A DNA stretch of 64,000 nucleotides, taken from a virus. Below, piece by piece: positions 28,044 through 54,291 of the stretch. Within the stretch, counting starts at the first letter, position 1. The number at the start of each line of letters is the position of its first letter. Where the stretch lies: positions 276,173-340,172 of IMG/VR virus record IMGVR_UViG_3300042473_001265; one strand, given 5' to 3'. Under the pieces are notes generated by a model that did no database searches, was not told the DNA's origin, and saw only the letters and a program-made list of their open reading frames with translations. Both the position numbers and the translations under genes were made by a program.

Positions 28044-29252
28044 ATGACCATCAGATCAACACCCACGCATTGCAGTTTTTGTGACAAGCACAAGGATCAA
28101 GTCGTCAAACTGATTGTGGGGCACAATGTAGGCATATGCAACGAGTGTGTTGATTTTTGTCACGGGCTACTGATAAAAGAACAGGCCAAAACAAAAAACG
28201 TCACAGAAGAATCAATTTTAGATCCACGAGCAATACACAAATATCTTGATCAGTATGTGATTGGTCAACCAACTGCTAAAATTGTGTTGAGTGTGGCTGT
28301 GGCCAATCATTACAAGCGCATCAGTGATACAGGTCTAGAACAAGAAATACAAAAAGCCAATATCTTAATAACAGGACCAACCGGCACAGGCAAAACACTG
28401 ATGGCCCGTACTGTGGCCAAATATTTAGATGTTCCTTTTGTCATTGCAGATGCAACCACATTGACCGAAGCAGGTTATGTGGGTGATGATGTTGACAGTT
28501 TGATCACACGGTTATATCATGCCAGTGGAAATGATGTGGAACGCACACAGCGCGGTATTATATTCCTAGACGAAGTAGACAAAATAGCCCGCAAAAGCGA
28601 AAGCGCCACGGTAACACGGGACATATCCGGCGAGGGTGTGCAGCAAGCACTGCTCAAACTGATCGAAGGTACCAAGTGCAAAGTGGCCCAGCAAAATAGT
28701 CGCAAGGTCTCAACAGGTGAAACAGTTGACATCGACACTACCAACATCCTGTTTATCTGTGGTGGAGCTTTTGTTGGGCTAGACAAAGTTATCAAAACCC
28801 GCACACACGGAACTGCCATTGGATTTGGTGCAAAGTTAACAGTGCCAAACAACGCCACAACAGAAGCAATCACTCCAGACGATCTAGTACGCTACGGAAT
28901 GATACCGGAGTTTGTGGGAAGATTTCCCAGCATTATACAACTGGACGAGCTGACCAAACCACAACTTATTACCATTCTTACCGAAGTAAAAAACAACCTG
29001 GTTGGTCAGTACAGATGGTTGTTTAACCAAGATGGGGTAGCATTGGACTTTGATACCGACAGTTTAGATCTAATTGCTGAACGCACAATGGTCACAAAAA
29101 CTGGTGCTCGTGGACTGCATACAGAACTAGAGCGTGTGTTGTTGCCGCATATGTACAACTTGAAAGATTATCAGTCACGCAATGTGCTAAAAATTGCCAT
29201 TGACAAAACACAAGTCACAACGCCTCTTAAATTAGAACAACAAAATTCTTAA
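28044..29252 (+). CDS. clpX: ATP-dependent unfoldase ClpX
   Basis: 402 residues, near the host ClpX length. It has the N-terminal zinc-binding domain (C10, C13, C32, C35), Walker A GPTGTGKT near residue 112, pore loop GYVG, Walker B IIFLDEVDKIA and EFVGRFP. The IGF tripeptide that docks ClpX onto ClpP is kept (AIGFGAK, near residue 260), so it can be expected to work with a ClpP. Two ClpP genes lie 22-25 kb downstream and clpS 0.6 kb downstream. The start is one base after the preceding stop. Confidence 0.95.
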   Translation: MTIRSTPTHCSFCDKHKDQVVKLIVGHNVGICNECVDFCHGLLIKEQAKTKNVTEESILDPRAIHKYLDQYVIGQPTAKIVLSVAVANHYKRISDTGLEQEIQKANILITGPTGTGKTLMARTVAKYLDVPFVIADATTLTEAGYVGDDVDSLITRLYHASGNDVERTQRGIIFLDEVDKIARKSESATVTRDISGEGVQQALLKLIEGTKCKVAQQNSRKVSTGETVDIDTTNILFICGGAFVGLDKVIKTRTHGTAIGFGAKLTVPNNATTEAITPDDLVRYGMIPEFVGRFPSIIQLDELTKPQLITILTEVKNNLVGQYRWLFNQDGVALDFDTDSLDLIAERTMVTKTGARGLHTELERVLLPHMYNLKDYQSRNVLKIAIDKTQVTTPLKLEQQNS

Positions 29253-29257
29253 ATTTA

Positions 29258-29288
29258 TTGACAGATGTTGAGATATCTGTTATAAATA
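29258..29288 (+). promoter_or_regulatory. hsp20 dual promoter: sigma70 type plus T4 late element
   Basis: TTGACA (29258-29263), 17 bases, TATAAA (29281-29286). The -10 is also part of a perfect late octamer TATAAATA (29281-29288). One site could thus serve both early and late transcription. Confidence 0.75.
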
Positions 29289-29353
29289 ATCGTGTAGTGC
29301 CCATGGTGGGGCTACATTTTAAAAGTCATCTTGCTTAATAAAGGAGAAAACAA

Positions 29354-29812
29354 ATGACAAAAACTCTCACCCTTCGCTCTTTCGACATTCCTGCAATTCA
29401 CAAATTTGGCATCGGATTCGACAACATGTTTGATGATCTCATGCGTGTGAGTGCTCAACAATCTACCACAAATTATCCACCTTATGATATTGTACAAATC
29501 AACGAAGATGAGTACATGATTGCTGTGGCTGTGGCCGGATTTGGCGACGACAATCTTTCAGTGATCAAGGACAAAAAAGTTTTGGTCATTGAAGGTAAGC
29601 ACAGCCGTGAAACTGTGGACAATGAAGATTCTACTGCAAAATATCTGCACAAAGGCATCAGTGAAAGACATTTCCGCAGGGAATTTCAGTTGGCTGATCA
29701 TGTGGAAATTGTCAATGCAAATCTTGAACTGGGCATCTTGAGCATACACCTAAAGCGTGATATTCCTGAAGAAGCCAAGCCAAAGACCATTGCAATCAAC
29801 TACAAAAAGTAA
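29354..29812 (+). CDS. hsp20: small heat-shock protein Hsp20 (IbpA/alpha-crystallin type)
   Basis: 152 residues. Alpha-crystallin domain about residues 40-140: YPPYDIVQINEDEYMIAVAVAGF, LVIEGKHS, GISERHFRREFQLADHVEIVNANLELGILSIHLKR, the last with the G-I/V-L motif. Hsp20 holds unfolding proteins; T4-like marine phages often carry one. Strong ribosome site AAAGGAG. It lies between clpX and clpS, forming a protein quality-control cluster. Confidence 0.94.
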   Translation: MTKTLTLRSFDIPAIHKFGIGFDNMFDDLMRVSAQQSTTNYPPYDIVQINEDEYMIAVAVAGFGDDNLSVIKDKKVLVIEGKHSRETVDNEDSTAKYLHKGISERHFRREFQLADHVEIVNANLELGILSIHLKRDIPEEAKPKTIAINYKK

Positions 29813-29831
29813 TATAATAATCATAAGTACA

Positions 29832-29852
29832 GTGGCAGCACAGTGCTGCCAC
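29832..29852 (+). other. perfect inverted repeat between hsp20 and clpS
   Basis: GTGGCAGCAC, one A, GTGCTGCCAC. A strong hairpin in RNA with no U-tract; it could be an mRNA processing/stability element or weaken read-through. Confidence 0.7.
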
Positions 29853-29873
29853 TACTACAACAAAGGACACACT

Positions 29874-30188
29874 ATGACATCACCAGATATCAATACATTA
29901 ATCAAATCAAAAGTAGAACTGCGTGAACCACCAATGTTTAAGATCATCTACTTGAACGACACCAAGACATCTGTAGATTTTGTAGTTGAAAGTTTAATCA
30001 CACACTTTGAATACACAGCAGACACTGCTGTCGCCATCACTGAAGATATCCATAATTCTGGATCCGCAGTGGTAGCAGTATTGCCCTACGAAATTGCTGA
30101 ACAAAAAGGCATCGAAGTCACTGTGGATGCTCGCAATCATAATTTTCCATTGCAGATCAAGCTGGAACCTGAAACAGTTGTGCATTGA
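29874..30188 (+). CDS. clpS: Clp protease adaptor ClpS
   Basis: 104 residues. The start at 29874 follows AAAGGACAC; an in-frame ATG at 29757 lies inside hsp20. The family pattern is clear: PPMFKIIYLNDTKT, FVVESLI, IHNSGSAVVAVLPYEIAEQKGIEV, AR...FPLQIKLE. By alignment with E. coli ClpS, N34, D35 and H66 are kept (N28, D29, H60), but D36 is T30 and the gatekeeper M40 is V34. ClpS hands N-degron substrates to ClpA; no clpA is seen here, so the partner may be host ClpA. Confidence 0.88.
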   Translation: MTSPDINTLIKSKVELREPPMFKIIYLNDTKTSVDFVVESLITHFEYTADTAVAITEDIHNSGSAVVAVLPYEIAEQKGIEVTVDARNHNFPLQIKLEPETVVH

Positions 30189-30195
30189 ATAAAAT

Positions 30196-30984
30196 TTAAA
30201 AATCTATGCTGATGCGTTTGGGATAATAAGTTGGTGTCCAGCCACTGTCTTCTTGTCGGCCCTTGCAATTGTTCACATAGCGTACCCCGTTGATGTTGCG
30301 ATCTACTGAATTGTGATAGTGACCAAAGCACCATGTGTCTATTTTGTTTTCAGTGTCTTCGTCCAGCACTAGCGACATGTGCGAATTACCCATTTTGTTG
30401 AACTCGTAGGTGTCGGTTATGCTGACATCGTGACTGATAAGATCCATGGCAGGCACAGTGTGCGTGACCACAACAATGCGTTTGACATCTGAATGTGTTT
30501 GTAGTTTTTTAACACTGTTGATTAGATAAGCAACATCATCAAATGCAAAAGACTCTATTTCTGCGGTGGTATCGTAATTGGTTTTCATCACATCAGTCCA
30601 CCACAGCTTGCACTGTTGTTCGTCTATGTTGCGATCAAAGTCCCAGGTCCACCATCCATTGGTGCCAATGATAGCAACACCATTGATGATCACACAGTTG
30701 TTTTGTAAAAACACAACATTTGGAATGTCAGTTATTGCTTCTTCCAGTATGGAATAACTTTGTTCAATCACATCTAAATTGTATCTGTGTTCGTTGTTGC
30801 CATCTATATAAAACACTGCTTGATAGCATTTGCCCAAGTGCTCAAGAGTTTCTCTTACCACTTCTACATCACGGGAAATGTCTCCGGCAACTATACAAAT
30901 AGGACTGGTAGCTTGCCCCATCCAGTCCAGGGTCTCATGCGGATCCAAATGCAGGTCGGAAATTAAATCAAAGGTCATTTGCAT
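30196..30984 (-). CDS. metallophosphoesterase (calcineurin-like)
   Basis: 262 residues with the full motif set: SDLHLD, VAGDISRD, GNNEH, VVTHTVP, GHYHNSVD. The family hydrolyses phosphomonoesters or diesters with two metals; the substrate (protein, cyclic nucleotide or nucleic acid) cannot be told. It lies on the reverse strand within forward genes. TTTAAATA (complement of 30991-30998) ends 6 bases before its ATG, so a leaderless late message is possible. Confidence 0.88.
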   Translation of the reverse strand: MQMTFDLISDLHLDPHETLDWMGQATSPICIVAGDISRDVEVVRETLEHLGKCYQAVFYIDGNNEHRYNLDVIEQSYSILEEAITDIPNVVFLQNNCVIINGVAIIGTNGWWTWDFDRNIDEQQCKLWWTDVMKTNYDTTAEIESFAFDDVAYLINSVKKLQTHSDVKRIVVVTHTVPAMDLISHDVSITDTYEFNKMGNSHMSLVLDEDTENKIDTWCFGHYHNSVDRNINGVRYVNNCKGRQEDSGWTPTYYPKRISIDF

Positions 30985-31010
30985 GATACATATTTAAAAG
31001 GATTTACAAC

Positions 31011-31373
31011 ATGAACATTATTATTGACCCAGATCAGCTGAAAACATATCAGGAAAAATACACTGTGTTGGAACTGGACACTATTCGCATGGTGCCAGAA
31101 AACAAACAAGTGACGGCCTACTGTGTGGTTGAATCAATTCCTATTTTGGAATTGCATTTGACAGAAAGCAAGCGAAATCTACACAATGGTCTATTGGAAA
31201 ACTATCGCAAACGCGACTGGAACTACTGCCATCAGGCCCTGGACCATTTGATCGGCAGTTGGAATGGCGAATTAGATTCATTCTACGATGATGTACGCAA
31301 CAGAATCAATGTGTTTATGGAAAATGATCCCGGGCCGCAATGGGACGGCATTATAGAAAAACACACAGCATAA
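31011..31373 (+). CDS. conserved phage protein, 120 aa
   Basis: Soluble, opening MNIIIDPDQLKTYQEKYTVLELDT. The middle AYCVVESIPILELHLTESKRNLHNGLLENYRKRDWNYC is typical of a T4-like marine phage protein of unknown role. RBS AAAAGGA. It is divergent from the phosphoesterase gene. Confidence 0.65.
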   Translation: MNIIIDPDQLKTYQEKYTVLELDTIRMVPENKQVTAYCVVESIPILELHLTESKRNLHNGLLENYRKRDWNYCHQALDHLIGSWNGELDSFYDDVRNRINVFMENDPGPQWDGIIEKHTA

Positions 31374-31392
31374 TTGTATTGGACACTGGTGC

Positions 31393-31400
31393 GATAAATA
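31393..31400 (+). promoter_or_regulatory. T4-type late promoter element
   Basis: GATAAATA, 45 bases before the start of the secreted-protein gene at 31446. Confidence 0.45.
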
Positions 31401-31445
31401 TCAACAAGCCAACAAAGATTGGCTGCGATTATAAAGGCCAGTGAA

Positions 31446-32021
31446 ATGAAAAAATTAAATTACCTGGCGGCAATTTTGGGGTTTGTTGCCGTTTCTGCGT
31501 TTGCACAGTCAGACCCAATTGTGACTGACAGTACCAGTCGTAGTACCAGCACCAGCAACAATACCAATACCAACATCAGTGACAGTCGTAGTGTGAGTGA
31601 CAGCACTCAGACTCTACGGTCGCCACCACCCACGGCCGTGGCACCAGCAGTCACAACCATCAACAATGATGTGTGCGCTGTGGTAGCATCAGGTGCTGTG
31701 CAAACACAGATTTTTGGATTCAGCATGGGCGGTACCATGCGGGACATGAACTGCGAACGCATCAAACTCAGCAAGAACTTGTTTGACATGGGCATGAAAG
31801 TAGCAGCCGTGGCCACCTTGTGCCAAGACGAGCGTGTGTTTGCTGCCATGATTGCAGCAGGAACACCTTGCCCCATAGACGGCAAAATTGGTGTACAGGC
31901 CAAGGCTGAATGGGACAGTCGCGGTGTGCTAGCAAATGACAAAAAGGCCATTGGCTTCTACGGCGTACCGCCCAAAAAAGCACCTGCTGCTGTTGTGTCT
32001 GAGACTCCTGAGGTCAAATGA
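31446..32021 (+). CDS. secreted protein with Ser/Thr-rich linker
   Basis: 191 residues. Residues 1-20 are a Sec signal peptide (MKKLNYLAAILGFVAVSAFA, cleavage before Q). A Ser/Thr/Asn-rich linker follows, then a domain with four Cys (DVCAVV, MNCERI, LCQDERV, TPCPIDGK) probably forming disulfides in the periplasm. The ATG at 31446 gives a clean signal peptide, so I preferred it to 31419. The stop overlaps the next signal-peptide gene. Role unknown, perhaps an envelope or late-infection protein. Confidence 0.7.
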   Translation: MKKLNYLAAILGFVAVSAFAQSDPIVTDSTSRSTSTSNNTNTNISDSRSVSDSTQTLRSPPPTAVAPAVTTINNDVCAVVASGAVQTQIFGFSMGGTMRDMNCERIKLSKNLFDMGMKVAAVATLCQDERVFAAMIAAGTPCPIDGKIGVQAKAEWDSRGVLANDKKAIGFYGVPPKKAPAAVVSETPEVK

Positions 32022-34264
32022 AACTGATCAGTCAACTGCTTGTGGCATTGGCTGTGTCAATCTCAGGGTTGACTGTGTCAGCACAGACCACAGGAACCAG
32101 TGCTCCACTCACAGGCAGTTGGAACAATGTAGTGACCGGCACTCATCCCGGTGCCAATGAGTGTTGCTGGGGCGGTCCACAACCTCTGTATGATCCTGCA
32201 ACCAACACCATACATTTCTCCTACACTCTGACCGCAGTGCATAGAGTCATAGCCATCAATCAAGCACTGTCTGGTTCTGGTGTACAAATCAATGGGTACA
32301 ACTGGGGCTATGATTTGAGAAACATGAACGGTGTGCGTGGTGTGCAAACCGGAACTGACTCTATTGTGGCCACCACATTCATGACCAATCGGTTCAATCA
32401 GTTTCTAGCGCAAGATGACCGACACTACAACACACAGTTTGACTGGACTAGATTTTCTGGCACAGTGGGATTGCCCACTAGTGTGAGCCTGGCAGATAGT
32501 GGTTCCCTGGGCATTCAGTTTGTGGCCAACGACAGCGGTAACTGGGGTGGATATTACGGCCCTCAGGTGCGCGATGTTGAGATGACTGTGAACTATACCT
32601 CGGCACCGCCGGATCCTTGTGTGGCCAATCCTCAGAGTTCGCCTTCATGCCCGGGCTACACAATTATTTCAGACAACCTGGTGCCATTTCCCAACCACTG
32701 GACCACTGCCGGCCAAGGCATCAATCAGACCTATGCCATCAACCAGGCCCTGAGTTCAGTGGGCGCTGGTGTTGTGATCCACGGTTTCAATTATGGCTAT
32801 CAATACAATCTGGGCAGCTCATACTCTCAGTGTACAGCGTTCAATCAAGACGGCAGTTGCTCATGGACCATGACATTTAATCCGCGAGTGGATGTGAACT
32901 TTAAAATTCGCAGCAACACCAATAGCCTGTTGTATGATGTTACTCACAGCGAAACTGGCAATAATACCGGCAATCGCAGTAGAGATTATCAATACAGATT
33001 TGCCAATCCCCGATCAATCACTGAACTGGGCAACATTGGATACTCAGCTACGACTGCAGGTAATTCTACAATTTTTGGTATGTATAGCCAGGCTGCTTAT
33101 ACCATAGACGAGTGCGTGGTCAACCCACTTAGTTCAACCACCTGCTCGGGCTATGCACAGGCCTACTTTGACCAACAGTGCGGTGCTAATCCCCTATACA
33201 ACTCACAGTGTGCTGGCTATGCACAGGCCTATTTTGATCAACAGTGCTCGAACAATGCGTTATACAGCTCACAGTGTCCAGGCTATACTCAGGCCTATTT
33301 CAACCAACAATGCACAGCCAATTCCTTGTACAGCACTGCCTGTCCAGGATATGCCACTGCCTACTACAATTATCAGTGTTCGGCCAACCCATTATACCAC
33401 ACAGGCTGTACAGGATATGCACAGGCCTATTTTGACCAACAGTGCAGCTTGAACACACTTTACAATTCGCAGTGTCCTGGGTATGCTGATGCCTATTATG
33501 TACAACAATGCACTGGCAGTCCACTGTATGATTCAGGATGTACAGGATATGCTCAAGCCTACTTTGATCAACAGTGCGGCCTGGATCCACTCTACAATTC
33601 GCAGTGTACAGGCTATCGTGAAGCTTATGCTTTGAAATACATTGTGATTGAAAAACCCAAGGCAGAAGAAACAGTGTCAGTCGGAGTCATGGCCATAGCA
33701 AACACCGCTCCGGCAGCAGCCGAACCAGCACCTCCAGCAGCACCTGCACCAATGGCCACAGCATCGCCTGCAGAGTCTGCCACTGCCCCTGTGCAACTTG
33801 TGCCACCACCTGCACCCGTGGCCGCAGCAGCACCTGCAGAAAGCAAAAAAGAAACCAAGGCCACTGCTGATGCAACCAGCAGCACCTCCGGCACCTCCAA
33901 CAGCAGCGGTTCAAAAGAACAGCCCAAAACCAATCGGCAAGCCTTGGCCGAACGCAGAATGGAAGCAGCCCGTGAAAAAGCAACAGCCGCGGCCAAACAA
34001 AATCCTGCTGCAATGGCAGCACAAATGGACGCAGCAGGCAGCATGGAACAACAGGTTGAACTGCAATCCGTGGTACTAGGTGCAATGGGATTTGTAGCAG
34101 GATTTGATACATACAGCCGCAGCACCATACCCGACGCTGTGGGATACAAGCCATTTGATATCTATCCTGGGCAGCGCAACATAGACTCACCTGCAGCAAG
34201 ATTGCTGCTGGTGCGCAGTGATAGAATCCACCAAGACATGGTGGACAGTCAATACAAAAAATAA
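32018..34264 (+). CDS. secreted protein with eight 22-residue Cys repeats
   Basis: 748 residues. Signal peptide 1-22 (MKLISQLLVALAVSISGLTVSA). Two related N-terminal beta domains follow (about 25-205 and 215-360; both hold INQALS...GxNxGY), joined by CVANPQSSPSCPGY. Residues 366-541 are eight exact 22-residue repeats, C-x2-NPLY-x3-C-x-GYAQAYFDQQ, Cys every 10 and 12 positions. Then an Ala/Pro-rich stretch, a charged helix (about 625-665) and a C-terminal domain ending RIHQDMVDSQYKK. It looks exported to the periplasm or surface; adhesion, fibre or envelope function is inference. Confidence 0.75.
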   Translation: MKLISQLLVALAVSISGLTVSAQTTGTSAPLTGSWNNVVTGTHPGANECCWGGPQPLYDPATNTIHFSYTLTAVHRVIAINQALSGSGVQINGYNWGYDLRNMNGVRGVQTGTDSIVATTFMTNRFNQFLAQDDRHYNTQFDWTRFSGTVGLPTSVSLADSGSLGIQFVANDSGNWGGYYGPQVRDVEMTVNYTSAPPDPCVANPQSSPSCPGYTIISDNLVPFPNHWTTAGQGINQTYAINQALSSVGAGVVIHGFNYGYQYNLGSSYSQCTAFNQDGSCSWTMTFNPRVDVNFKIRSNTNSLLYDVTHSETGNNTGNRSRDYQYRFANPRSITELGNIGYSATTAGNSTIFGMYSQAAYTIDECVVNPLSSTTCSGYAQAYFDQQCGANPLYNSQCAGYAQAYFDQQCSNNALYSSQCPGYTQAYFNQQCTANSLYSTACPGYATAYYNYQCSANPLYHTGCTGYAQAYFDQQCSLNTLYNSQCPGYADAYYVQQCTGSPLYDSGCTGYAQAYFDQQCGLDPLYNSQCTGYREAYALKYIVIEKPKAEETVSVGVMAIANTAPAAAEPAPPAAPAPMATASPAESATAPVQLVPPPAPVAAAAPAESKKETKATADATSSTSGTSNSSGSKEQPKTNRQALAERRMEAAREKATAAAKQNPAAMAAQMDAAGSMEQQVELQSVVLGAMGFVAGFDTYSRSTIPDAVGYKPFDIYPGQRNIDSPAARLLLVRSDRIHQDMVDSQYKK
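33113..33640 (+). repeat. eight tandem 66-base coding repeats
   Basis: Each 66-base unit encodes one 22-residue Cys repeat. Units keep CAGGCCTA(C/T)TT and CAACAGTG blocks. There are no spacers and the frame is preserved, so it is a protein repeat. Confidence 0.9.
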
Positions 34265-34275
34265 AGGAGACCAAA

Positions 34276-36252: not shown

Positions 36253-37254
36253 TTATTTGATCTGTGTCCAAACTCGTTCACGAATTTGTTTAGTCAAGCT
36301 GTCGGGCAATGACACATAGTCAAGGTCAGCAGCATCCTTCTTGCCGTTGCGGAATGCCCAGTCAAAGAACTTGAGCACTTCAGCTGAAGATTTTTTATCT
36401 GCTGGATCTTTGTACATGATAATAAAGCTGGCAGTGCTTATTGGCCAGACCGCATCACCCTTTTGATCCACAATGCTCAAGCCCATGCCCGGCACACTGA
36501 ACCAATCAGCACCTGCGGCTGCGGCCGCAAATGTCACATCATCAGGGCTGACAAATTTACCGTTTTTGTTCTGTAGCTGCATAAAAGTCATGTTGTTTTT
36601 CTTTACATAAGCATACTCAACATAACCAATGCCGCCCTTGGTACGATTCACAATGGCTGCAACACCTTCGTTGCCTTTGCCACCAATACTGCTCACAGCA
36701 GGCCATTTGATTGCTGCACCACGACCCACACGCTTGGCCCACTCGGTGCTGGCCACAGTCAAGTAGTCAGTCCAGTTGAATGTTGTGCCCGACCCGTCTG
36801 CACGATGAACCACGGTGATTGGTTGATCAGGCAGCTTCTTGCCAGGGTTCAGTGCTGCCAGTCTGGCATCATTCCAACGAGTGATGTCACCCAGAAACAC
36901 TTCTGCCAACACTGTGCCAGTGATTCGCAACTCTCCAGGTTTAAACCCTTCCAAGTTCACAATAGGCACTGTGCCACCAATGATGGCGGGAAACTGTACT
37001 TGTGCTAGCTTGTCTAGCTCTGCACCTGCTACTGGAGCATCGCTGGCACCAAAGGTCACTGTTTTGTTGTTGATCTGGCGTATGCCACCTGAACTACCAA
37101 TTGACTGATAGTTGAGTCCAATGCCTGTTTCTTTCTTGTAGGCTTCTGCCCACTTGGCATAGATGGGATAGGGGAATGTTGCGCCTGCGCCAGTGATGTC
37201 TGCGTGAGCTGTGACAGTTATGGCCGCTAGCAAAATAGCTAATAGTTTGTTCAT
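36253..37254 (-). CDS. pstS: phosphate-binding protein PstS
   Basis: 333 residues, full length. Signal peptide about 1-18 (MNKLLAILLAAITVTAHA). Phosphate-binding motifs: TGAGATFPYPIY, SIGSSGGI, FGASDAPV and ADGSGTTFNW. It binds phosphate in the periplasm and passes it to the host Pst transporter. T4-like marine phages commonly carry it. A Pho-box-like sequence lies upstream (37321-37338) and the gene stands alone between two terminators or convergent ends. Confidence 0.95.
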   Translation of the reverse strand: MNKLLAILLAAITVTAHADITGAGATFPYPIYAKWAEAYKKETGIGLNYQSIGSSGGIRQINNKTVTFGASDAPVAGAELDKLAQVQFPAIIGGTVPIVNLEGFKPGELRITGTVLAEVFLGDITRWNDARLAALNPGKKLPDQPITVVHRADGSGTTFNWTDYLTVASTEWAKRVGRGAAIKWPAVSSIGGKGNEGVAAIVNRTKGGIGYVEYAYVKKNNMTFMQLQNKNGKFVSPDDVTFAAAAAGADWFSVPGMGLSIVDQKGDAVWPISTASFIIMYKDPADKKSSAEVLKFFDWAFRNGKKDAADLDYVSLPDSLTKQIRERVWTQIK

Positions 37255-37301: not shown

Positions 37302-37303
37302 GT

Positions 37304-45482: not shown

Positions 45483-46036
45483 GAATCAACTGGGTTGTGG
45501 CCGACGCCACTGTGATTGCACCAGATGTGGACATTGCTGCTGTCAAAGACATTGCCAGCATTTGGGGCAGCTGGCGCACCTGGCGTGGATGCAGCACCGA
45601 CAATGTGGTGTGCAATGACGCCGGCAAAGCTCGCGAATTGTTAAAACGCAACATGCAAGAAATGTGCAACATGTATATTCCTGAGTCCATGTATGCTGAA
45701 TTGGATAGACCTCGATCGGTTCGGTTGTTTGGTGGCCAGTTTACATTTGCAGTAGACAATCAAGATGAACTGATTGCTATACAATTGGTATCTGGCCAAA
45801 GCGATATTGTGTTACTGATGGGATTTGATTGGACCGAAAAGCCCATCAGCAGTGATCGGTTAATAGCACACAGAGCAAACAACTATCGTAAATTTGTTGT
45901 GGACGCTGTACAAAACAATCCCCAAGTGCAATGGGTTTTGGTAGACCACGAAGGCGATGTCATGCCCGAATTGGCTGATTTTGATAACTTGACACAAGAT
46001 ACCCTACAAAATGTAATGGAACTACTGTCCACTTGA
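45479..46036 (+). CDS. conserved phage protein after fibre gene
   Basis: 185 residues. ATG 45479 overlaps the fibre stop (ATGA); a longer in-frame start at 45437 lies in the fibre gene. It opens MRINWVVADATVIAPDVDIAAVKDIASIWGSWRTWRGC and has IVLLMGFDWTEKP in the middle. I have a sense of similar proteins beside fibre genes in T4-like phages but no function. Confidence 0.6.
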   Translation: MRINWVVADATVIAPDVDIAAVKDIASIWGSWRTWRGCSTDNVVCNDAGKARELLKRNMQEMCNMYIPESMYAELDRPRSVRLFGGQFTFAVDNQDELIAIQLVSGQSDIVLLMGFDWTEKPISSDRLIAHRANNYRKFVVDAVQNNPQVQWVLVDHEGDVMPELADFDNLTQDTLQNVMELLST

Positions 46037-46061
46037 CAATGTCCAATGATCAGTGTACAAT
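46033..46061 (+). promoter_or_regulatory. sigma70-type promoter of uvsE
   Basis: TTGACA, 17 bases, TACAAT. The -35 overlaps the upstream stop (TGA of ACTTGA at 46034-46036). The ATG at 46069 comes 7 bases after the -10. Confidence 0.8.
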
Positions 46062-46068
46062 ACTCTGT

Positions 46069-47100
46069 ATGACTACACTAAAGCGTATTGGTTTCTGTTG
46101 CAAATGGCTCAATGATCCGTCCGAATGCGGCGGCATGAAAGTCAATGCTGTGGACCGTGAACTCAACGGCCGATCAACCACCATGCGCTGGCTGCGCGAA
46201 CATCCTGCCGAAGCTGAACAGCGCCAGTGGGACATCATGAATCACAACACTGCTGCTGCTGTGCGAATGATCGAGCGTGTGGCCACACTGCCGGCCAATC
46301 GCAGAATGGTGCGGTTAGGCAGTGAAATGTTGCAAGGCTACACTGAACCCAGTTGGAAGGCCTGGTGGCAACGACCAGAGATACAAGATCATCTGGCTCG
46401 TATATTTGCACCCATTGGTGAAACTGCTCGTAGACTGGATGTTAGACTCAGCTTTCATCCCGGACAGTTTTGCGTGTTGGCAAGTGAGAATCCTGGCATT
46501 GTAGAACGCAGTATAGAAGAATTCGAATATCATGCAGACATGGTGCGTTGGATGGGCTATGGCCGAACCTTCCAGGACTTTAAGATCAATGTACACATCT
46601 CAGGCAAACGCGGACCAGCTGGTATTCGAGATGCACTCAAACGACTGTCGCCTGAAGCAAGAAGTTCAATCACAATCGAAAACGACGAAAACGCCTGGGG
46701 TGTTGACTCAAGTCTTGAACTGGCCAAAGACTGTGCTCTTGTGCTGGACATACATCATCATTGGATCCGTACTGGAGAATACATCCAGGCCACCGACGAT
46801 AGGGTCAAAGGCATAGTTGACAGCTGGCGCGGTGTTAGACCTGCACTGCATTACAGTGTGAGTCGTGAAGATGTGCTGGTGGATCATGCTGCGGATATCA
46901 TTCCGGATCATGCTGTGTTGTTAGAGGCCGGCTACAAAAAACAAAAGATGCGAGCACACAGTGATTTTTATTGGAATCAACCTGTTACTGATTGGGCTCT
47001 GACCTTTTGGGATCAGTTTGATATACAGTGCGAATCCAAAGGCAAAAACTTGTCCAGTGAACAAGTTTACCGTCGTGCTGTTGAATTGGGATTGGCATAA
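46069..47100 (+). CDS. uvsE: UV-damage endonuclease UvsE/UVDE
   Basis: 343 residues. The start at 46069 gives MTTLKRIGFCCKW, the usual family N-terminus (LGYAC-like); the longer in-frame TTG start at 46033 would read through the promoter. TIM-barrel motifs: VRLGSEML, LSFHPGQFCVLAS, INVHISGKRG, ITIENDENAWG, LVLDIHHHW and a C-terminal ADIIPDHAVLLEAGYKKQKM, with His/Glu metal ligands. It nicks DNA 5' of UV photoproducts, an alternative to phage DenV. Probably a leaderless message. Confidence 0.92.
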   Translation: MTTLKRIGFCCKWLNDPSECGGMKVNAVDRELNGRSTTMRWLREHPAEAEQRQWDIMNHNTAAAVRMIERVATLPANRRMVRLGSEMLQGYTEPSWKAWWQRPEIQDHLARIFAPIGETARRLDVRLSFHPGQFCVLASENPGIVERSIEEFEYHADMVRWMGYGRTFQDFKINVHISGKRGPAGIRDALKRLSPEARSSITIENDENAWGVDSSLELAKDCALVLDIHHHWIRTGEYIQATDDRVKGIVDSWRGVRPALHYSVSREDVLVDHAADIIPDHAVLLEAGYKKQKMRAHSDFYWNQPVTDWALTFWDQFDIQCESKGKNLSSEQVYRRAVELGLA

Positions 47101-48127: not shown

Positions 48128-48128
48128 C

Positions 48129-48620: not shown

Positions 48621-48638
48621 TATCCAGTTCAAAACCGC

Positions 48639-48690: not shown

Positions 48691-48723
48691 TTGAGTGTAC
48701 ACAAACAAACAAATGGAGTCGAT

Positions 48724-49473
48724 GTGTCTGTAGATAATTTTGTAGTGTTAGACAGTGTGTATGGTAAATTTATTGTGGCCAGAACCTGTTTGTTCCAGGC
48801 CGAAGCCTTGGTCAAGACCGGCCGTACCCACATCGAAAGTGAGTTGGCCAATATTTTTGCATTGATCAACACACTGTCCGATGATGCAGTGATTGTGGAT
48901 GGTGGAGCCAACATTGGATTCTTCACTGTGCCTGTGGCCCACAAAACACAGGGCCGCGGCATTAGGATCATTTCGTTTGAACCACAACGACAATTGTTCC
49001 ATGCCTTGGGTGGCAGTTTGGCCTTGAACGGATACGATCATGTGTATCTACACAACCGTGGACTTGGCGCCAAACCCGGCATCGGCACTTTGCCCAAAGT
49101 GGATTACAGTCGCATAGAAGATTTTGGCACAGTGTCTTTGAACGATCAAACCAAACTCATTGAAGACAGCTGGATGGCAGACCGTTTGGTTGACATTGTA
49201 AGCATTGATGACATGCATTTGCCCAGACTGGATTTCTTCAAATTGGATGTTGAAGGATACGAAGTTCCAGCGTTGACCGGAGCTCTCAACACAATCAAAC
49301 AATATCGTCCGTGGATTTGGGTTGAGTATTTCATCACCGGAACTGAACCAATCAAAGCAGCCCTGGCAGACCTTACCGATTATTCTTTTTATTTGGTTGA
49401 TTACCAAAACATGTTGGTTGCTCCCAAAGAACGGTTGGCCAACATTTCCACAACAGGACTGCAACAAGTGTGA
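48724..49473 (+). CDS. FkbM-family methyltransferase
   Basis: 249 residues. I chose GTG 48724 because AATGGAGTCGAT in front matches the leader GGAGTCG of other early genes here; a GTG at 48670 in the same frame lies on the predicted transcription start and within the terminator arm. SAM-binding motif VIVDGGANIGFFTVPVA, then ISFEPQRQLFHAL and DFFKLDVEGYEVPAL as in FkbM. The family O-methylates sugars and other small molecules. It is bracketed by two copies of a promoter/terminator repeat. Confidence 0.85.
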   Translation: MSVDNFVVLDSVYGKFIVARTCLFQAEALVKTGRTHIESELANIFALINTLSDDAVIVDGGANIGFFTVPVAHKTQGRGIRIISFEPQRQLFHALGGSLALNGYDHVYLHNRGLGAKPGIGTLPKVDYSRIEDFGTVSLNDQTKLIEDSWMADRLVDIVSIDDMHLPRLDFFKLDVEGYEVPALTGALNTIKQYRPWIWVEYFITGTEPIKAALADLTDYSFYLVDYQNMLVAPKERLANISTTGLQQV

Positions 49474-49510
49474 CAACAGCAACACAATTGACCATTTGGG
49501 TTGCCTGCAC

Positions 49511-49539
49511 TTGACCAATTAATCCAGTTCGTGTACACT
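49511..49539 (+). promoter_or_regulatory. sigma70-type promoter fused to terminator, copy 2
   Basis: TTGACC, 17 bases, TACACT; same arrangement as copy 1. The ATG at 49546 is 6 bases after the -10. Confidence 0.7.
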
Positions 49540-49562
49540 AGATACATGAGCTGGATTTTTTT
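49524..49562 (+). terminator. terminator hairpin overlapping promoter, copy 2
   Basis: CCAGTTCGTG (49524-49533) pairs with CATGAGCTGG (49545-49554) through two G-U pairs, then A and seven T. Ends the FkbM message. Confidence 0.7.
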
Positions 49563-49641
49563 GGATTTACACAAACCAATTCTGGTTGACCAATCAAGTT
49601 CAGTGGTAATACACCATCAACATTTAAGGGTATTGAAATGA
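49546..49641 (+). CDS. possible leaderless 31-aa peptide
   Basis: ATG at the predicted start of the copy-2 promoter opens MSWIFLDLHKPILVDQSSSV and ends in a TGA that overlaps the lipoprotein ATG (ATGA). In copy 1 the matching frame is only six codons. It could couple translation into the lipoprotein gene; low confidence. Confidence 0.35.
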   Translation: MSWIFLDLHKPILVDQSSSVVIHHQHLRVLK

Positions 49642-50324
49642 AACATCGTATTTTAACTGCTGTGGCATTGGCTGCTGCTATGATGACCACAGGATGCAGC
49701 AACAATCCGCTCAAACCCGGCAGCGGCGCAGACCCCGGTGCCAGTGCTACCACTGCCATCAGTGAACAAGTGGCAGTGAACGACTTTACCCGCATCGGAG
49801 TGCGTATCAAATATAAATTGATCACAGGTGAGCTTGAAAGCATTGAAGCCACTGGATATGCTCCAGTCTGGGGCAACAGTGCATCCGCAGTGCGAGAATC
49901 ATTCCGTGTGGCCGAACTCGAAGCCAAGAAAAGTCTTAACGATTTTATCAATCGTGAAAACATCACCAGCAGCACTTCGGTCAAAATGATCAGTCATAAT
50001 CTGGAGCAGGCCACAGACAACAAGAAAAACAACTTTGTAAGCAATGTGGTCAAGTCCACTGACGAGTTTGCCGAAGTTGAAACGGCTGTCAATCCCAATC
50101 GTATCAACAACAACGAAACCAACACTGCTGTACGCAATGACGCATTGAAAATTGCCAGCACTGTGAACAACACAATCACTGTGAAAGCTTCGGGTATCCT
50201 GGGCGGGCTGTACCTGGTCGAAGGTAAAGTGATCAACAGCGGCAAAACTGTAATGACCGTCTATCGCTGGGACGCTCGGAGCAATGCTGTTCGTCCCACT
50301 GTGCGTTCTGCAATGATGCAGTAA
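49638..50324 (+). CDS. LPP20/FlgO-like outer-membrane lipoprotein
   Basis: 228 residues. Lipoprotein signal peptide with lipobox MTTG|C at residue 20 (MKHRILTAVALAAAMMTTGCSNN). The middle domain IEATGYAPVWGNSASAVRESFRVAELEAKKSLNDFI has the (E/A)A...A...L pattern of LPP20-type envelope lipoproteins. Directly followed by an exported FlgT-like protein after one base, so the two probably act together in the envelope. Role in phage biology unknown. Confidence 0.7.
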   Translation: MKHRILTAVALAAAMMTTGCSNNPLKPGSGADPGASATTAISEQVAVNDFTRIGVRIKYKLITGELESIEATGYAPVWGNSASAVRESFRVAELEAKKSLNDFINRENITSSTSVKMISHNLEQATDNKKNNFVSNVVKSTDEFAEVETAVNPNRINNNETNTAVRNDALKIASTVNNTITVKASGILGGLYLVEGKVINSGKTVMTVYRWDARSNAVRPTVRSAMMQ

Positions 50325-50325
50325 C

Positions 50326-51390
50326 ATGTTCAAGCGTTTACTGCTGGCCATCAGCACTGCCACAGTGCTGACAACTGCTCATGCTGATGTGCTTTCTATA
50401 TTTTTACCAACGCCGTGGACTGTGGGCATTGGGTTAGTTCGATGGCTGGCTGAAGGCCAAGAAAAAATTCTTTATGTAGAAGTTGTTGGCGAAGGCGCCA
50501 CTGTGGATCAAGCAAGACAACAGGGATTTGCACTGGCGGTGGAACATGCTGTGGGCACTGTGATTGTGAGCGAAACTGCTGTGCGCAACAGTCGTATAGT
50601 ACGGGACGAGATCATCACCTACTCTTCGGGCTATGTGGATCGATTTGAAATTGTCAAACAACAGCAGGCGGGCAATAGAGTTCAGGTCAGTATGAAAATA
50701 TGGGTCAAGCACAGCAAGTTGGCCAATAGATTGTTGAACCAATCTGAAACAGCCGGCACCATCGACGGTGGGCGTATCAGCGCACAGATACAGTCTCTGC
50801 AACGAGAACGAGTGTCCGGCGATCGATTGTTGCAATCTGTGCTAGCAGACTATCCACGCAGAGCGTTTGATATTGAATTGGCACCGACTCGAGTATTTTT
50901 CGATGCCAACAGAAATGGACAGTTGGAAGTGGCATTTCATCTGTCCTGGAACAAGTTGTACATTGACAGCATAGCCGAAGCTGTTGCTGCAATAAATCAA
51001 AGACCCGACTGCGGTAGATTTCCCGGCTGTACCAATGTGACTTCGGAAGTGACTGTTAAACGGCGTGGATTTGGATCCACCACCACAGCATATTTTGATG
51101 ATCGCAATGCACAGGAATTGATACGAAAAGAAATGGTGCAAAGCCAGCCCACCGTTCGTGTGGCCATTATGGATGTGAACGGCAATGAACAGTTCAAACA
51201 GTGCTTTTATGCCAAAGAACTGGATTATCGCGAGTACGCGGCCTGGTATTATGTAACGCTGGACCACAACAAAGTGTCCATAAACGGCCAGGCCAGCAAG
51301 AGATTCAGCACATTGATCAATCTTGGTTCTGTGCCGGCAAACCGGCTGGACAAAGTGGAAATATCCCTGGTTCGCGGACCTGGTTGTTAA
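50326..51390 (+). CDS. exported FlgT-like protein
   Basis: 354 residues. Signal peptide about 1-20 (MFKRLLLAISTATVLTTAHA). Residues about 50-125, VEVVGEGATVDQARQQGFALAVEHAVGTVI, VRNSRIVRDEIITYSSGYVDRFEIV, match the N-terminal FlgT/LPP20-like domain of periplasmic flagellar and envelope proteins. Four Cys in the C-terminal half could form disulfides. Pairs with the preceding lipoprotein. Changing host envelope or motility is a speculation. Confidence 0.65.
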   Translation: MFKRLLLAISTATVLTTAHADVLSIFLPTPWTVGIGLVRWLAEGQEKILYVEVVGEGATVDQARQQGFALAVEHAVGTVIVSETAVRNSRIVRDEIITYSSGYVDRFEIVKQQQAGNRVQVSMKIWVKHSKLANRLLNQSETAGTIDGGRISAQIQSLQRERVSGDRLLQSVLADYPRRAFDIELAPTRVFFDANRNGQLEVAFHLSWNKLYIDSIAEAVAAINQRPDCGRFPGCTNVTSEVTVKRRGFGSTTTAYFDDRNAQELIRKEMVQSQPTVRVAIMDVNGNEQFKQCFYAKELDYREYAAWYYVTLDHNKVSINGQASKRFSTLINLGSVPANRLDKVEISLVRGPGC

Positions 51391-51396
51391 TTTGGA

Positions 51397-51418
51397 TTAT
51401 GGCACAATAGTGCCATAA
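51397..51418 (+). other. perfect hairpin before clpP promoter
   Basis: TTATGGCAC, AATA loop, GTGCCATAA. No T-run, so a weak terminator or mRNA 3' stabiliser for the preceding gene. Confidence 0.5.
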
Positions 51419-51422
51419 GTAG

Positions 51423-51451
51423 TTGTGTACCAATTTGGTTAGCTGTACAAT
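51423..51451 (+). promoter_or_regulatory. sigma70-type promoter of first clpP
   Basis: TTGTGT, 17 bases, TACAAT, 32 bases before the ATG at 51484. Confidence 0.55.
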
Positions 51452-51483
51452 GCTAACTACTATAACTTTAATTAGATCACATC

Positions 51484-52059
51484 ATGGCAAACCAAACAGA
51501 TACAGAATTCAACAAAGACCACACACAGGCCTTGGCCGACATAGGCATGTATGTGCTGATGGGAGAAATCAATGCTGAAACAGTCAAACCGGTGATTGAA
51601 TGGATTTTACACGAAAACTTTGTGTCCAAGAAAAAACGCAAAGAACTCTTGTTGATGATCTGTAGTGAGGGCGGCGATGTACAAGATGCATTTGCCTTGA
51701 TTGATGTGATGCGCAGCAGTCTTATTCCTGTAAAGACAGTGGGCTTGGGAATGATTGCCAGTTCGGGACTGTTGATTTTTCTTGCTGGCAGTGCTGGACG
51801 CCGTGTGTTGACTCCAAACACTTCGATACTGAGTCATCAATTCTCTTGGTACAACGAAGGCAAGGTTCATGAGTTATTTGCCACTATGAAAGAGTTTGAA
51901 CTGACTCAACACCGTATGGTCAAGCACTATCAAGAATGCACTGGGCTTGATGAAGAAAACATTCGTAAAAATTTACTACCACCACATGATGTATGGCTCA
52001 CTGCCGAAGATGCATTAAGACTCCGCATCTGCGATAGCATTTCAATACTTCAGCGCTGA
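51484..52059 (+). CDS. clpP: divergent ClpP-type protease
   Basis: 191 residues. Divergent from the second ClpP but with an intact triad by alignment: S93 (IASSG), H118 (SHQFSWY) and D169 (HDVWLTAEDAL). Lacks the classic GQAASMG and MIHQP wording. ClpP forms a 14-mer chamber fed by ClpX. It may form mixed rings with ClpP2 at 53701, or act as a specialised protease (inference). Its end overlaps the convergent gene by 10 bases. Confidence 0.82.
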   Translation: MANQTDTEFNKDHTQALADIGMYVLMGEINAETVKPVIEWILHENFVSKKKRKELLLMICSEGGDVQDAFALIDVMRSSLIPVKTVGLGMIASSGLLIFLAGSAGRRVLTPNTSILSHQFSWYNEGKVHELFATMKEFELTQHRMVKHYQECTGLDEENIRKNLLPPHDVWLTAEDALRLRICDSISILQR

Positions 52060-53600
52060 CGTTTACGGCCAAACATTGGCACATTATCTCTCGGAGGTTT
52101 CACAACTTCTGTCTCGTCTTCGTCGCCGCCGGCTCTAGCAGTAACTCTTGAGCGTTTTTGTGTCACTGCATCTAGGTCGGCAGCATTTAGATTTGCAGGT
52201 TCTTGCCCAGTCCCAGCGGCATCCGCATCATACGGTTCCATACTGGGTTCAGACCTGGCACCTTTGGGTTTGAGTTTGAAACTGAATCCGCCTTTGGTAG
52301 GGTTAACGCCGCCAGATTTTGATTCTATAGTAACTTCGCCATCAAGTTTTGCAGGCCATTGAGTGTTGAAAATCAGCGTGTTGCCAGATGCTGTGGTATA
52401 CTGCTGAATGAAATTGTAATCCAACACTTCCAGCACAACAGCTTGAAATTCAGGGACTGCTCCGCTGTTCACAATGTTCATCACAGCAGCTTTGGTCACA
52501 TAGGTAAGTTTTCCACCGTCACTGCCTTTGCTGTCTAACTTGGCAAACAGTGGCTCGTACTTGGGCATGGCTGTGCCATTTTTTAAACTGTCTGACACCT
52601 GGGCCACAATATCTTTTGACCAAGGAAGGAATGGTTGAAAGTCTGCAGGGATCGCGTCAGGTCCCAACCGCTGGTTCAACAAATTCATGACCTGGAACAC
52701 TTGACTCACAGTCCATGGCTTGGGTAAATTTTCGTTTTGACACAGCTCAATCAAATCAATTGCTGTTTGGTATTGAGTCTTTGAACGCAGATGATCAGGA
52801 ATCTTTAAGCTGCTCACACTGGGTGCAGCGCCGCCGCCGGTGCCCTTGCTGCTGATGTTTAGTGTGTGTGCATTTTCTGGATTGGTAACTGAAGCAAAAC
52901 TGTCAGCAATGGGATTATTTTGTTCACTGGGAAAGCTCAATACCAGGCTCATCATATCTGTGCCCAACCAGGCTAAAAACTGGTCACGCGATGCAAATTT
53001 GGATTGATTGTAGACCAATGCCAGCACACCAAGATATTCCCCTGCGTAATCCACAATGGCTTTTTTTAGCTTGTCGTTTTTGCGAATTTCGTCAGGCATC
53101 ACAGCAGGATTGCCAGCCATGATATTCTGTGCCATGACGATGACTGCTTGTCCGTATTCAGTTGATTGTAGCACTGGATTATTCACAATGGCCGCACCAA
53201 ACTCATCTGCTGGAATGGCCTGATCAGTAATACCAATCTGTGCTGGTTTGACCAATACACCTTCTTTGCTGGTCTGCCCAGGTGCTTGCGCTCCGGGCTT
53301 GGCGCTGCTGCCACCAAATTCAGCAGTTTTTCTAAAGTTCGAAAGCGGCCATTGTTTTCCATCGGCGTCGACTGCTTTGATGCTGCCTTGGAATTCGCCG
53401 GCTGCTTTCATCTTTAAGAATCTGTCAGCTTCGGCGGGAGCCAACACAACTTCGGCGCCTTCTTTTTCGGTATAGAATGGCCGTTTATTTTGAATGTGCG
53501 CAATAAATGCGTCAAAGCGTTCGGGATACTTGGTGATCTCACCCGGGCTCAGAGTTGCTTCCTGAAGCAAATCATCTAGTATGTTGATTAAATCTCTCAT
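52050..53600 (-). CDS. conserved phage protein, 516 aa
   Basis: Opens MRDLINILDDLLQEATLSPGEITKYPERFDAFIAHIQ, a start style (LLQEATLxPGEIxKYPxR) I know from virion or unknown proteins of T4-like marine phages. Later TLNISSKGTGGGAAPSVSSLKIPDHLRS, and a basic C-terminus (PPRDNVPMFGRKRQR). The middle may be a nuclease-like fold, but no catalytic motif is clear. It sits reversed between two clpP genes and overlaps the first by 10 bases. Function unknown. Confidence 0.65.
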   Translation of the reverse strand: MRDLINILDDLLQEATLSPGEITKYPERFDAFIAHIQNKRPFYTEKEGAEVVLAPAEADRFLKMKAAGEFQGSIKAVDADGKQWPLSNFRKTAEFGGSSAKPGAQAPGQTSKEGVLVKPAQIGITDQAIPADEFGAAIVNNPVLQSTEYGQAVIVMAQNIMAGNPAVMPDEIRKNDKLKKAIVDYAGEYLGVLALVYNQSKFASRDQFLAWLGTDMMSLVLSFPSEQNNPIADSFASVTNPENAHTLNISSKGTGGGAAPSVSSLKIPDHLRSKTQYQTAIDLIELCQNENLPKPWTVSQVFQVMNLLNQRLGPDAIPADFQPFLPWSKDIVAQVSDSLKNGTAMPKYEPLFAKLDSKGSDGGKLTYVTKAAVMNIVNSGAVPEFQAVVLEVLDYNFIQQYTTASGNTLIFNTQWPAKLDGEVTIESKSGGVNPTKGGFSFKLKPKGARSEPSMEPYDADAAGTGQEPANLNAADLDAVTQKRSRVTARAGGDEDETEVVKPPRDNVPMFGRKRQR

Positions 53601-53643
53601 CTTGTACTTATCTCAATTGCCTGTATACGAGCAAATTGCTCAG

Positions 53644-53672
53644 TTGACTATTGCACAGTTTGATGTTACAAT
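53644..53672 (+). promoter_or_regulatory. sigma70-type promoter of second clpP
   Basis: TTGACT, 17 bases, TACAAT, followed by the leader AACAACAACAAGGAAT of the early-type genes. Confidence 0.8.
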
Positions 53673-53700
53673 TGTTTATTGAACAACAACAAGGAATTTC

Positions 53701-54291
53701 ATGCCCCATCTAGTCCCAATGGTAATCGAGCAAACCTCCAAAGGCGAGCGCAGTTACGACATCTACAGCCGTCTGCTCAAAGATCGTATTGTGATGTTGG
53801 ATACCGAAGTCAGTGATCACAGTGCCAGCTTGATCGTTGCACAAATGTTATTTTTGGAGAGTGAAAATCCCGACGCAGATATCCTGTTTTACATCAACAG
53901 CCCAGGCGGTGTTATTACCGCAGGTATGAGCATTTATGACACAATGAACTTTATCAAATGCGATGTCAGCACCATTGTGATGGGACAAGCCTGCTCAATG
54001 GGGTCATTTTTGGCACAGGCTGGCACAGCGGGCAAACGACTGATGCTGCCACATGCACGACACATGATACACCAACCGTCGGGTGGTGCCCGTGGCATGG
54101 CCAGTGACATTGAAATCAGCTACAAAGAAATCATGCATATGAAAAAGATGCTGACCGATCTGTATGTCAAGCACAACAGCCGTGGCAAAACCTATGAGGA
54201 ATTTGAGCGCGACATGGACCGAGACACCTTTATGAGTGCAGCGGAAGCGCTGGATTATGGGTTGATTGATAAAATTGTGGAAAAGCGCTGA
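53701..54291 (+). CDS. clpP: ClpP protease subunit (canonical)
   Basis: 196 residues, normal length. Triad S99 ([11 protein letters not shown]), H124 (MIHQPSGG) and D175 ([20 protein letters not shown]); oxyanion region [20 protein letters not shown]. One usual Ala before the Ser is Cys. Forms the proteolytic chamber for ClpX, and the phage ClpX keeps the IGF loop. Own early-type promoter and ribosome site. Confidence 0.95.

Follow-up and report, generated by a model that had tools for sequence, protein, structure and literature searches.

A phage-encoded Clp gene set with its own ClpA and a divergent ClpP predicted to lack the motor-docking pocket

Introduction

Does a large phage that carries clpX, clpS, and two clpP genes encode a Clp protease of its own, and what might the second ClpP contribute to it? 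The question is raised by a 64,000-nucleotide (nt) stretch of virus DNA, hereafter the window, which is the terminal part (G000:C1:276173-340172) of a 340,172-bp virus record, IMG/VR IMGVR_UViG_3300042473_001265. A preliminary description of the window had listed five genes (clpX, hsp20, clpS, a divergent clpP, here clpP2, and a canonical clpP, here clpP1), had proposed a phage ClpXP-type protease, perhaps with a mixed ClpP ring, and had seen no clpA. Our analysis favours, with a probability of roughly 0.55, a self-contained phage ClpAP/ClpXP system with a docking-deficient accessory ClpP2, probably assembled in one-sided ClpP1-ClpP2 chambers. Below, coordinates without a prefix are those of the window.

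Results

All five genes are intact in the window, at the positions first described, and each encodes a protein scoring above the Pfam gathering score. The ratio of nonsynonymous to synonymous substitution rates (dN/dS), calculated for clpX, clpS, clpP1, and clpP2 in comparison with a small selection of relatives (hsp20 and clpA being outside this set), lies between 0.02 and 0.13 in 11 of 13 comparisons, the remaining two, both of clpP2, being saturated, indicating that these four genes are maintained under purifying selection.

The clpP1 gene (53701-54291, + strand) encodes a canonical ClpP of 196 amino acids (aa; Pfam 263.2 bits) that keeps the catalytic triad, the docking pocket, and the axial hairpin, and that begins MPHLVPM, three residues ahead of the LVPM of the E. 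coli mature form. It passes the NCBIfam subfamily model NF001368 (309.3 bits vs. a cut-off of 249) and scores 293.9 bits vs. 308.6 with the equivalog model TIGR00493. The clpP2 gene (51484-52059, + strand) encodes a divergent ClpP of 191 aa that matches PF00574 (95.9 bits vs. 20.2), falls below the cut-off of its best NCBIfam ClpP model (87.0 vs. 228 bits), and has as its best solved chain 4jcr (57.7 bits), which we take to be Listeria ClpP1. The two window proteins share 25% identity (46/184). Alignment confirms the Ser-His-Asp triads initially reported for both: Ser97-His122-Asp171 (E. coli mature numbering) is present in window ClpP1 and conserved among its relatives (S 91/91, H 91/91, D 90/91), and the triad is complete in 45/45 ClpP2 sequences.

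To compare the docking pockets, we aligned the distinct sequences of both types (91 of 91 ClpP1 and 45 of 45 ClpP2; E. coli ClpP numbering) and scored the positions that we take to bind the Ile-Gly-Phe (IGF) loop of the motors. In ClpP2, position 62 is Met in 37 sequences, Ile in 3, Ser in 2, Tyr in 2, and Leu in 1; position 82 is Ser in 36, Ala in 5, Asn in 2, Gly in 1, and Thr in 1; position 114 is Thr in 43 and Gly in 2; and position 189 is Ser in 38, Ala in 3, Leu in 2, Gly in 1, and Arg in 1. The pocket positions that ClpP2 retains are 48 (Leu in 44/45) and 90 and 92 (aliphatic in 45/45). The ClpP1 sequences, serving as control in the same alignment, have Tyr (81) or Phe (10) at position 62, Phe at 82 in 87, Leu at 114 in 89, and Ile, Val, or Leu at 189 in 88/91. 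In passages of published work, the docking-pocket tyrosine corresponds to S. aureus Y63 (PMC8182300), and the ClpP pocket is described as aromatic/hydrophobic, with the tyrosine present in all ClpP sequences (PMC6889138). Judged by alignment, the aromatic/hydrophobic IGF-binding pocket appears to be absent from most of the 45 ClpP2 sequences, which would not be expected to dock a motor.

An AlphaFold2 model of ClpP2 (mean predicted local distance difference test score, pLDDT, 79.6) is closest to ClpP structures, with 1y7o_F as its best match (Z 25.2, root-mean-square deviation 2.0, 170 residues aligned); the top match in a viral structure library has 31% identity. The N-terminal axial beta-hairpin is missing from ClpP2 in both the alignment and the model, in which residues 1-11 have pLDDT <50 and the handle is broken, at low confidence. 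In the ClpP1 model (mean pLDDT 90.5), the N-terminal hairpin is present and the handle helix is unbroken. ClpP2 is thus, as predicted from sequence, a ClpP without the motor-docking pocket and with its active-site triad kept, and its axial hairpin has probably been lost. As to the origin of ClpP2, a recent duplication of clpP1 is unsupported: the two proteins are 25% identical and ClpP2 forms a conserved family of its own. A cellular origin likewise found no support; the five relatives found in cellular genome data all lie in phage-like contigs (small, mostly same-strand open reading frames, ORFs) of metagenome-assembled genomes (MAGs), in a scan that used two peptide patterns and was narrow enough for cellular copies to escape.

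The motor encoded in the window is ClpX. The clpX gene (28044-29252, + strand) encodes a 402-aa protein (zf-C4_ClpX 47.7 bits vs. 27; AAA_2 110.5 bits) that passes NF003745 (509.1 bits vs. 359) and TIGR00382 (475.3 vs. 370.75). The C4 zinc domain and the IGF docking loop (as AIGFGA), both reported earlier, are seen in alignment together with Walker A (GPTGTGKT), Walker B (IFLDEVDK), the GYVG pore loop, the arginine finger (EFVGRFP), and sensor-2 (TGARGL); the RKH pore loop is RKV in the window and RKH in many relatives. The docking loop is present in 89 of 90 ClpX relatives (90 of 98 distinct sequences kept at a coverage filter of 0.85), as IGF in 69, MGF in 18, LGF in 1, and VGF in 1; a single relative, L218, has no readable loop. 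With the ClpX loop and the receiving pocket of ClpP1 both kept, the parts of the proposed phage ClpXP-type protease are supported.

Directly ahead of clpX, ending one base before it, lies a gene (26294-28042, + strand) for a protein of 582 aa that has a hydrophobic segment near its N terminus and contains a CxxC...CxxxxC stretch. This protein has a relative in 40/47 ClpX loci; it had no Pfam, PHROGs, or NCBIfam match at the thresholds used.

A second motor is encoded outside the window. The remark that no clpA was seen holds for the window and fails for the record: a search of the rest of the genome, proposed at the outset as a check, located clpA at G000:C1:49656-51929, where Clp_N (49701-49844) and ClpB_D2-small (51588-51815) matches fall within one 763-aa open frame. 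The protein itself is 757 aa (L266:2657-4930), its gene lies 54 bp downstream of the gene for a 262-aa DnaJ, and it comprises Clp_N, two AAA+ modules, and a docking loop, NNNIGFGKS. Residues 4-724 align to solved ClpA 1ksf (564.8 bits), and the best NCBIfam model is the ClpA model TIGR02639 (783.8 bits vs. 629.5 for the ClpB model TIGR03346). The IGF loop is present in 7/7 ClpA relatives (an eighth row, L218, was excluded as a ClpX match), and dnaJ lies immediately upstream of clpA in 8/8 fetched loci, which represent 8 of 17 records with Clp_N. No Hsp70 match was obtained in the 21 records searched (0/21).

The remaining two window genes encode a small heat-shock protein and an adaptor. Specifically, hsp20 (29354-29812, + strand) encodes a 152-aa protein with an alpha-crystallin domain (PF00011, 60.6 bits vs. 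20.8) whose best NCBIfam model is IbpA (126.2 bits, under the cut-off of 212); and clpS (29874-30188, + strand) encodes a 104-aa protein (PF02617, 73.6 bits vs. 23) that likely starts at the ATG at 29874, after AAAGGA, in a frame open from 29757. We take an Asn, a His, and the second of two Asp residues of ClpS to form the N-degron pocket, one Met to be part of the pocket wall, and the positions of E. coli E79 and K84 to contact ClpA. Among phage ClpS sequences (78 of 83 distinct sequences kept at a coverage filter of 0.85), the ClpA-contact residues are kept, E79 in 78/78 and K84 in 77/78, and both are kept in the window; the pocket Asn and His, and the Asp beside that Asn, are each present in 78/78. 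Another phage record has, beside its existing clpS, a second and weaker ClpS-domain match (G009:C1:22597-22800; 31.9 bits).

The initial suggestion that ClpS redirects host ClpA, or binds ClpX in a new way, finds no support, since the phage encodes a ClpA with an IGF loop and its ClpS keeps the ClpA-contact residues; with a phage-encoded partner, ClpS needs no new role. A broader form of the same idea is that the gene products do not form a self-contained system and act singly as host modulators by joining the Clp machinery of the host, with ClpS and ClpX acting on host ClpP, or ClpP1 serving host motors. Canonical docking parts are compatible with host partners (ClpP1 and ClpX score 263.7 and 400.3 bits, respectively, to solved ClpP and ClpX), and the idea is close to a suggestion made for ClpS in a passage of a jumbo-phage overview (PMC7824862). 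However, the phage itself has all the parts, ClpA included, and we consider this alternative quite unlikely; even so, phage subunits may exchange with those of the host.

The two clpP genes are usually linked. The clpP1 gene lies downstream of clpP2, on the same strand and 54 to 4,959 bp away, in 46 of 48 ClpP2 loci (49 loci less L102, which has 25% identity); the other two contigs stop 584 and 1,543 bp beyond clpP2. In 38 of 51 ClpX loci, hsp20 and clpS come after clpX, all three sharing one strand. Among 18 large records, Clp_N was found in 17, the ClpX zinc domain in 17, ClpP in 17, ClpS in 16, and two ClpPs in 11; Clp_N, ClpX, ClpS, and at least one ClpP occur together in 16/18, and a second ClpP joins them in 10, the record of the window included. 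Since the 18 records were reached through a Clp gene, these counts show co-occurrence and not prevalence, and they include near-duplicates with near-identical matches (G003/G004 and G013/G014/G017). Since clpP1 follows clpP2 within 5 kb in 46/48 loci, a mixed ClpP1-ClpP2 chamber, the possibility raised at the outset, appears plausible.

Between clpP2 and clpP1 in the window, on the opposite strand (52050-53600, - strand), lies a gene for a 516-aa protein that recurs in 23/48 ClpP2 loci. This protein had no family match at the Pfam, PHROGs, and NCBIfam thresholds used.

In the system that we favour, ClpP1 would be the docking peptidase, fed by ClpX and ClpA through their IGF loops; ClpS would hand N-degron-type substrates to phage ClpA; proteins prone to aggregation would be kept accessible by Hsp20 and by DnaJ, which is encoded beside clpA; and ClpP2 would most likely stack with ClpP1 rings, giving chambers with a single face open to a motor. 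The sequence data show the genes with their motifs, conservation, and linkage, and the predicted ClpP fold of ClpP2; how the parts assemble, whether docking is one-sided, which substrates are degraded, and how the system serves the infection are what we infer, and the phage may in this way reshape host proteolysis, as was first supposed.

Several observations weigh against this system. The ClpA score of 783.8 bits is below the TIGR02639 equivalog cut-off (993.15), the best NCBIfam score of ClpS (69.3 bits) is below its equivalog cut-off (149), and the model of ClpP2 has weak stretches at residues 1-11, 120-125, and 137-140. In the ClpS pocket, the next Asp, the pocket residue, is occupied by Asn (53 sequences), Asp (10), Ser (7), Glu (6), or Thr (2), and window ClpS has Thr there, where the solved ClpS chain has Asp; the pocket-wall Met is replaced by Thr in 76/78. 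The N-degron specificity of phage ClpS may thus differ: with contact residues kept and pocket residues changed, docking to ClpA looks kept, and substrate choice may be altered. Leu/Phe-tRNA transferase had a match in 0/21 records. There are also cases in which the two ClpPs are parted. The genes clpP1 and clpP2 are ~78 kb apart in record G012 and ~85 kb apart in Sinorhizobium phage Phosso; a ClpP2-type protein is the sole ClpP match in the complete, circular genome of cyanophage BUCT-ZZ01, so that ClpP1 is not an obligatory partner; and two of three MAGs searched whole (G018 and G019) show a ClpP2 relative only, these being archaeal-labelled bins with a phage-like contig, which tell little of the phage.

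The unpaired copies are also what would be expected if ClpP2 acted without ClpP1, either as a motor-free homo-oligomeric peptidase or by mixing into host ClpP and blocking docking on one side; in line with this, the lone copies of BUCT-ZZ01 and of the archaeal-labelled MAGs are likewise without the docking pocket. However, ClpP1 is present in 11/11 large records with a ClpP2-type match and in 4/4 further virus records of 130-154 kb (G021-G024), most records that pair the two having been reached through ClpP2 itself, and clpP1 usually follows clpP2 in the loci described above. Solitary action of ClpP2 is in our view a genuine possibility, if a somewhat doubtful one.

A role of one or both ClpPs as head-maturation proteases has to be weighed because PHROGs labels many ClpP-like phage proteins in this way and both ClpPs match such families. 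However, the phage encodes a T4-type prohead protease (Peptidase_S77) separately, at G000:C1:197443-197898, as do other records (16 of the 21 searched in total), which leaves no need for either ClpP to act as head protease; both score below the cut-off of 120 of NF045542, the model for ClpP-related head maturation proteases (ClpP2 55.1, ClpP1 94.2); and ClpP1 is a full-length canonical ClpP. On the strength of the separate S77 protease and the sub-cut-off scores, we rejected this as the main role of the ClpPs and regard it as highly improbable.

We also examined sites resembling promoters, taking TATAAATA to be the T4-type late-promoter consensus and counting as sigma70-like any pair with at least 10/12 matches. 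In the window, TATAAATA is located at 29281-29288 (+ strand), 73 nt upstream of the hsp20 start; sigma70-like pairs precede clpS (TTGCAA-17-TATAAT, 29790-29818, + strand, overlapping the hsp20 end) and clpP1 (TTGACT-17-TACAAT, 53644-53672, + strand); and clpP2 has neither (best sigma70 score 8/12). Across relatives, exact TATAAATA within 150 nt upstream is found in 34/88 distinct stretches for hsp20 and 17/46 for clpP2, against a background of ~0.9% per stretch, and in 0/91 for clpP1, 2/91 for clpX, 1/86 for clpS, 0/8 for clpA, and 0/7 for dnaJ. Counted with one representative per 85% protein cluster, TATAAATA precedes hsp20 in 17/48 (0.74 expected from shuffles) and clpP2 in 5/23 (0.24 expected). 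Sigma70-like pairs precede clpS in 64/86 stretches (3.0 expected), clpP1 in 36/91 (3.8), clpX in 25/91 (3.2), clpA in 3/8 (0.4), dnaJ in 6/7 (0.0), hsp20 in 12/88 (3.7), and clpP2 in 3/46 (0.7); by cluster, the values are 32/46 (1.35 expected) for clpS, 16/57 (1.70) for clpX, 9/34 (1.05) for clpP1, 3/8 (0.25) for clpA, 6/7 (0.45) for dnaJ, 7/48 (2.10) for hsp20, and 3/23 (0.40) for clpP2. Thus clpP2 and hsp20, too, are preceded by sigma70-like sites somewhat more often than expected, and the majority of clpP1 clusters lack both types. Among 43 distinct same-locus pairs of clpP2 and clpP1, TATAAATA precedes clpP2 only in 17, clpP1 in 0, and neither in 26, and a sigma70-like pair precedes clpP1 only in 7, both in 2, and neither in 34. 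The pattern is suggestive only, because starts were set by homology and the sequences are related.

All seven TATAAATA sites of the window (2) and of five 20-kb prohead-protease stretches (5) lie within 150 nt before a same-strand, mechanically called ORF start, one of them ahead of an ORF of 763 aa that is itself upstream of the prohead protease gene; 3/7 lie just 13-14 nt from the start, among them the site at window position 26280, which at 14 nt is too close to serve that ORF, and 2/5 prohead-protease stretches have no site. The number of sites does not exceed chance in the window (2 vs. 1.42) or in two 20-kb head-gene stretches tested, so that placement alone is informative. CATAAGTANTTG occurred a single time, before clpP2. 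ATAAGTA elements near Clp genes were considered and discarded (4 found vs. 5.25 expected). In several loci (L060, L064, L066, L074, and others), a GC hairpin with a T run, resembling a terminator, comes immediately after TATAAATA and shortly ahead of the clpP2 start.

The late-type motif before clpP2 in part of the phage group, together with the more frequent sigma70-like sites before clpS, clpP1, clpX, and dnaJ-clpA, would fit ClpP2 as a switch subunit that enters ClpP1 or host ClpP chambers late in infection, caps one face against ClpX and ClpA, and in this way retunes or shuts down an early Clp protease as virion proteins accumulate, a proposal that we put forward as unlikely.

Other genes of the window encode a UV-damage endonuclease, UvdE (46033-47100, + strand; 109.9 bits), a 152-aa protein that matches the malonyl-CoA decarboxylase C-terminal domain (25419-25877, + strand; 34.5 bits vs. 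a cut-off of 23.2), and a PstS-type phosphate-binding protein (36253-37254, - strand; phrog_5385, PBP_like_2), the last also found in the flanks of 3/48 ClpP2 loci and 2/47 ClpX loci. Some short database records with ClpX or ClpP that are named as Escherichia, Staphylococcus, or Listeria phages (OR845177, OR849975, OR848442, and others) gave the impression that they may be bacterial contaminants.

Discussion

If the self-contained system with an accessory ClpP2 exists as proposed, giant phages would run a regulated protease of their own rather than only borrowing that of the host, possibly as a tool for removing host defence or regulatory proteins. Some phages would then resemble mycobacteria and chlamydiae in having a two-ClpP arrangement, one in which docking disappeared because the pocket residues themselves were replaced, and would offer a small, testable model for why cells retain non-docking ClpPs. 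The corrected gene list, with clpA present and a separate prohead protease, clears two misleading readings.

Phage Clp sets are already known; what appears to be new is the ClpP2 family, with its triad kept and its IGF pocket rebuilt. The literature searched, with most subscription journals outside the search and several papers represented by passages, yielded no description of a phage ClpP without the docking pocket. The jumbo-phage overview lists ClpP, ClpS, ClpA, and ClpX in various phages (PMC7824862), and AP-J-162 has six Clp ORFs with Hsp20 and DnaJ (PMC11242549). The nearest precedents for the ClpP pair are two protease-like proteins of Agrobacterium phage Atu_ph07 (PMC6102473) and two bS21-adjacent Clp-protease groups (PMC9723584). 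Atu_ph07, with seven Clp-family proteins, resembles the present phage in having ClpX, ClpA, ClpB, ClpS, DnaJ, and a canonical ClpP (PMC6102473), which in our comparison is 67% identical to ClpP1; it differs in that its Clp genes have numbers far apart (PMC6102473), and in that we obtained a single CLP_protease match at an expectation value (E) of 0.001, a threshold at which it therefore has no match of the ClpP2 type.

The cultured Pseudomonas phage PA5oct (MK797984, Arenbergviridae) has clpX, a heat-shock protein gene, and clpS in the same order, a ClpP gene ~7.4 kb further on, a ClpA-like Clp_N protein elsewhere, and a T4-type prohead protease. Unlike the present phage, it has one ClpP match only, its sequences are distant (ClpS 29%), and the interval from clpS to clpP holds ftsH and a gene for an FtsH-interacting membrane protein (L265 11826-14241). 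By annotation, PA5oct thus seemingly has two kinds of AAA+ protease, FtsH and Clp. A virion role of its ClpP is hinted at by 'ESI-MS/MS' annotation notes only, the text of PMC6950013 making no mention of Clp. Sinorhizobium phage Phosso (PV764938) is closer, with ClpX, ClpS, a canonical ClpP (70%), and a ClpP2-type protein (52%); it differs in the wide separation of its clpP genes given above and in having no Clp_N match at E 0.001.

Freshwater bS21 phages and moraphages are likewise large aquatic phages with chaperones and Clp proteases (PMC9723584, PMC12619734). In published genomes, the neighbourhood of bS21 repeatedly contains Hsp20 (127 cases) and two Clp-protease groups (50 and 47) (PMC9723584), and for moraphages ClpA stands in a table of common groups and DnaJ is discussed (PMC12619734). 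The passages at hand are silent on loss of the docking pocket, and on whether the groups are ClpPs or share one genome.

The closest functional parallel is bacterial. In M. smegmatis ClpP1P2 (PMC6889138) and in C. trachomatis (PMC9823225), two types of ClpP are present and the AAA+ motor docks on one only, the non-docking ClpP having an altered or occluded pocket or a predicted absence of the axial loop (PMC6889138, PMC9823225); in M. smegmatis, one-sided docking is set by pocket composition and a C-terminal extension (PMC6889138). These systems differ from the one proposed here in that they are encoded by cells, whereas phage ClpP2 has mostly polar or small pocket residues and low identity, 4jcr (57.7 bits) being its best solved chain.

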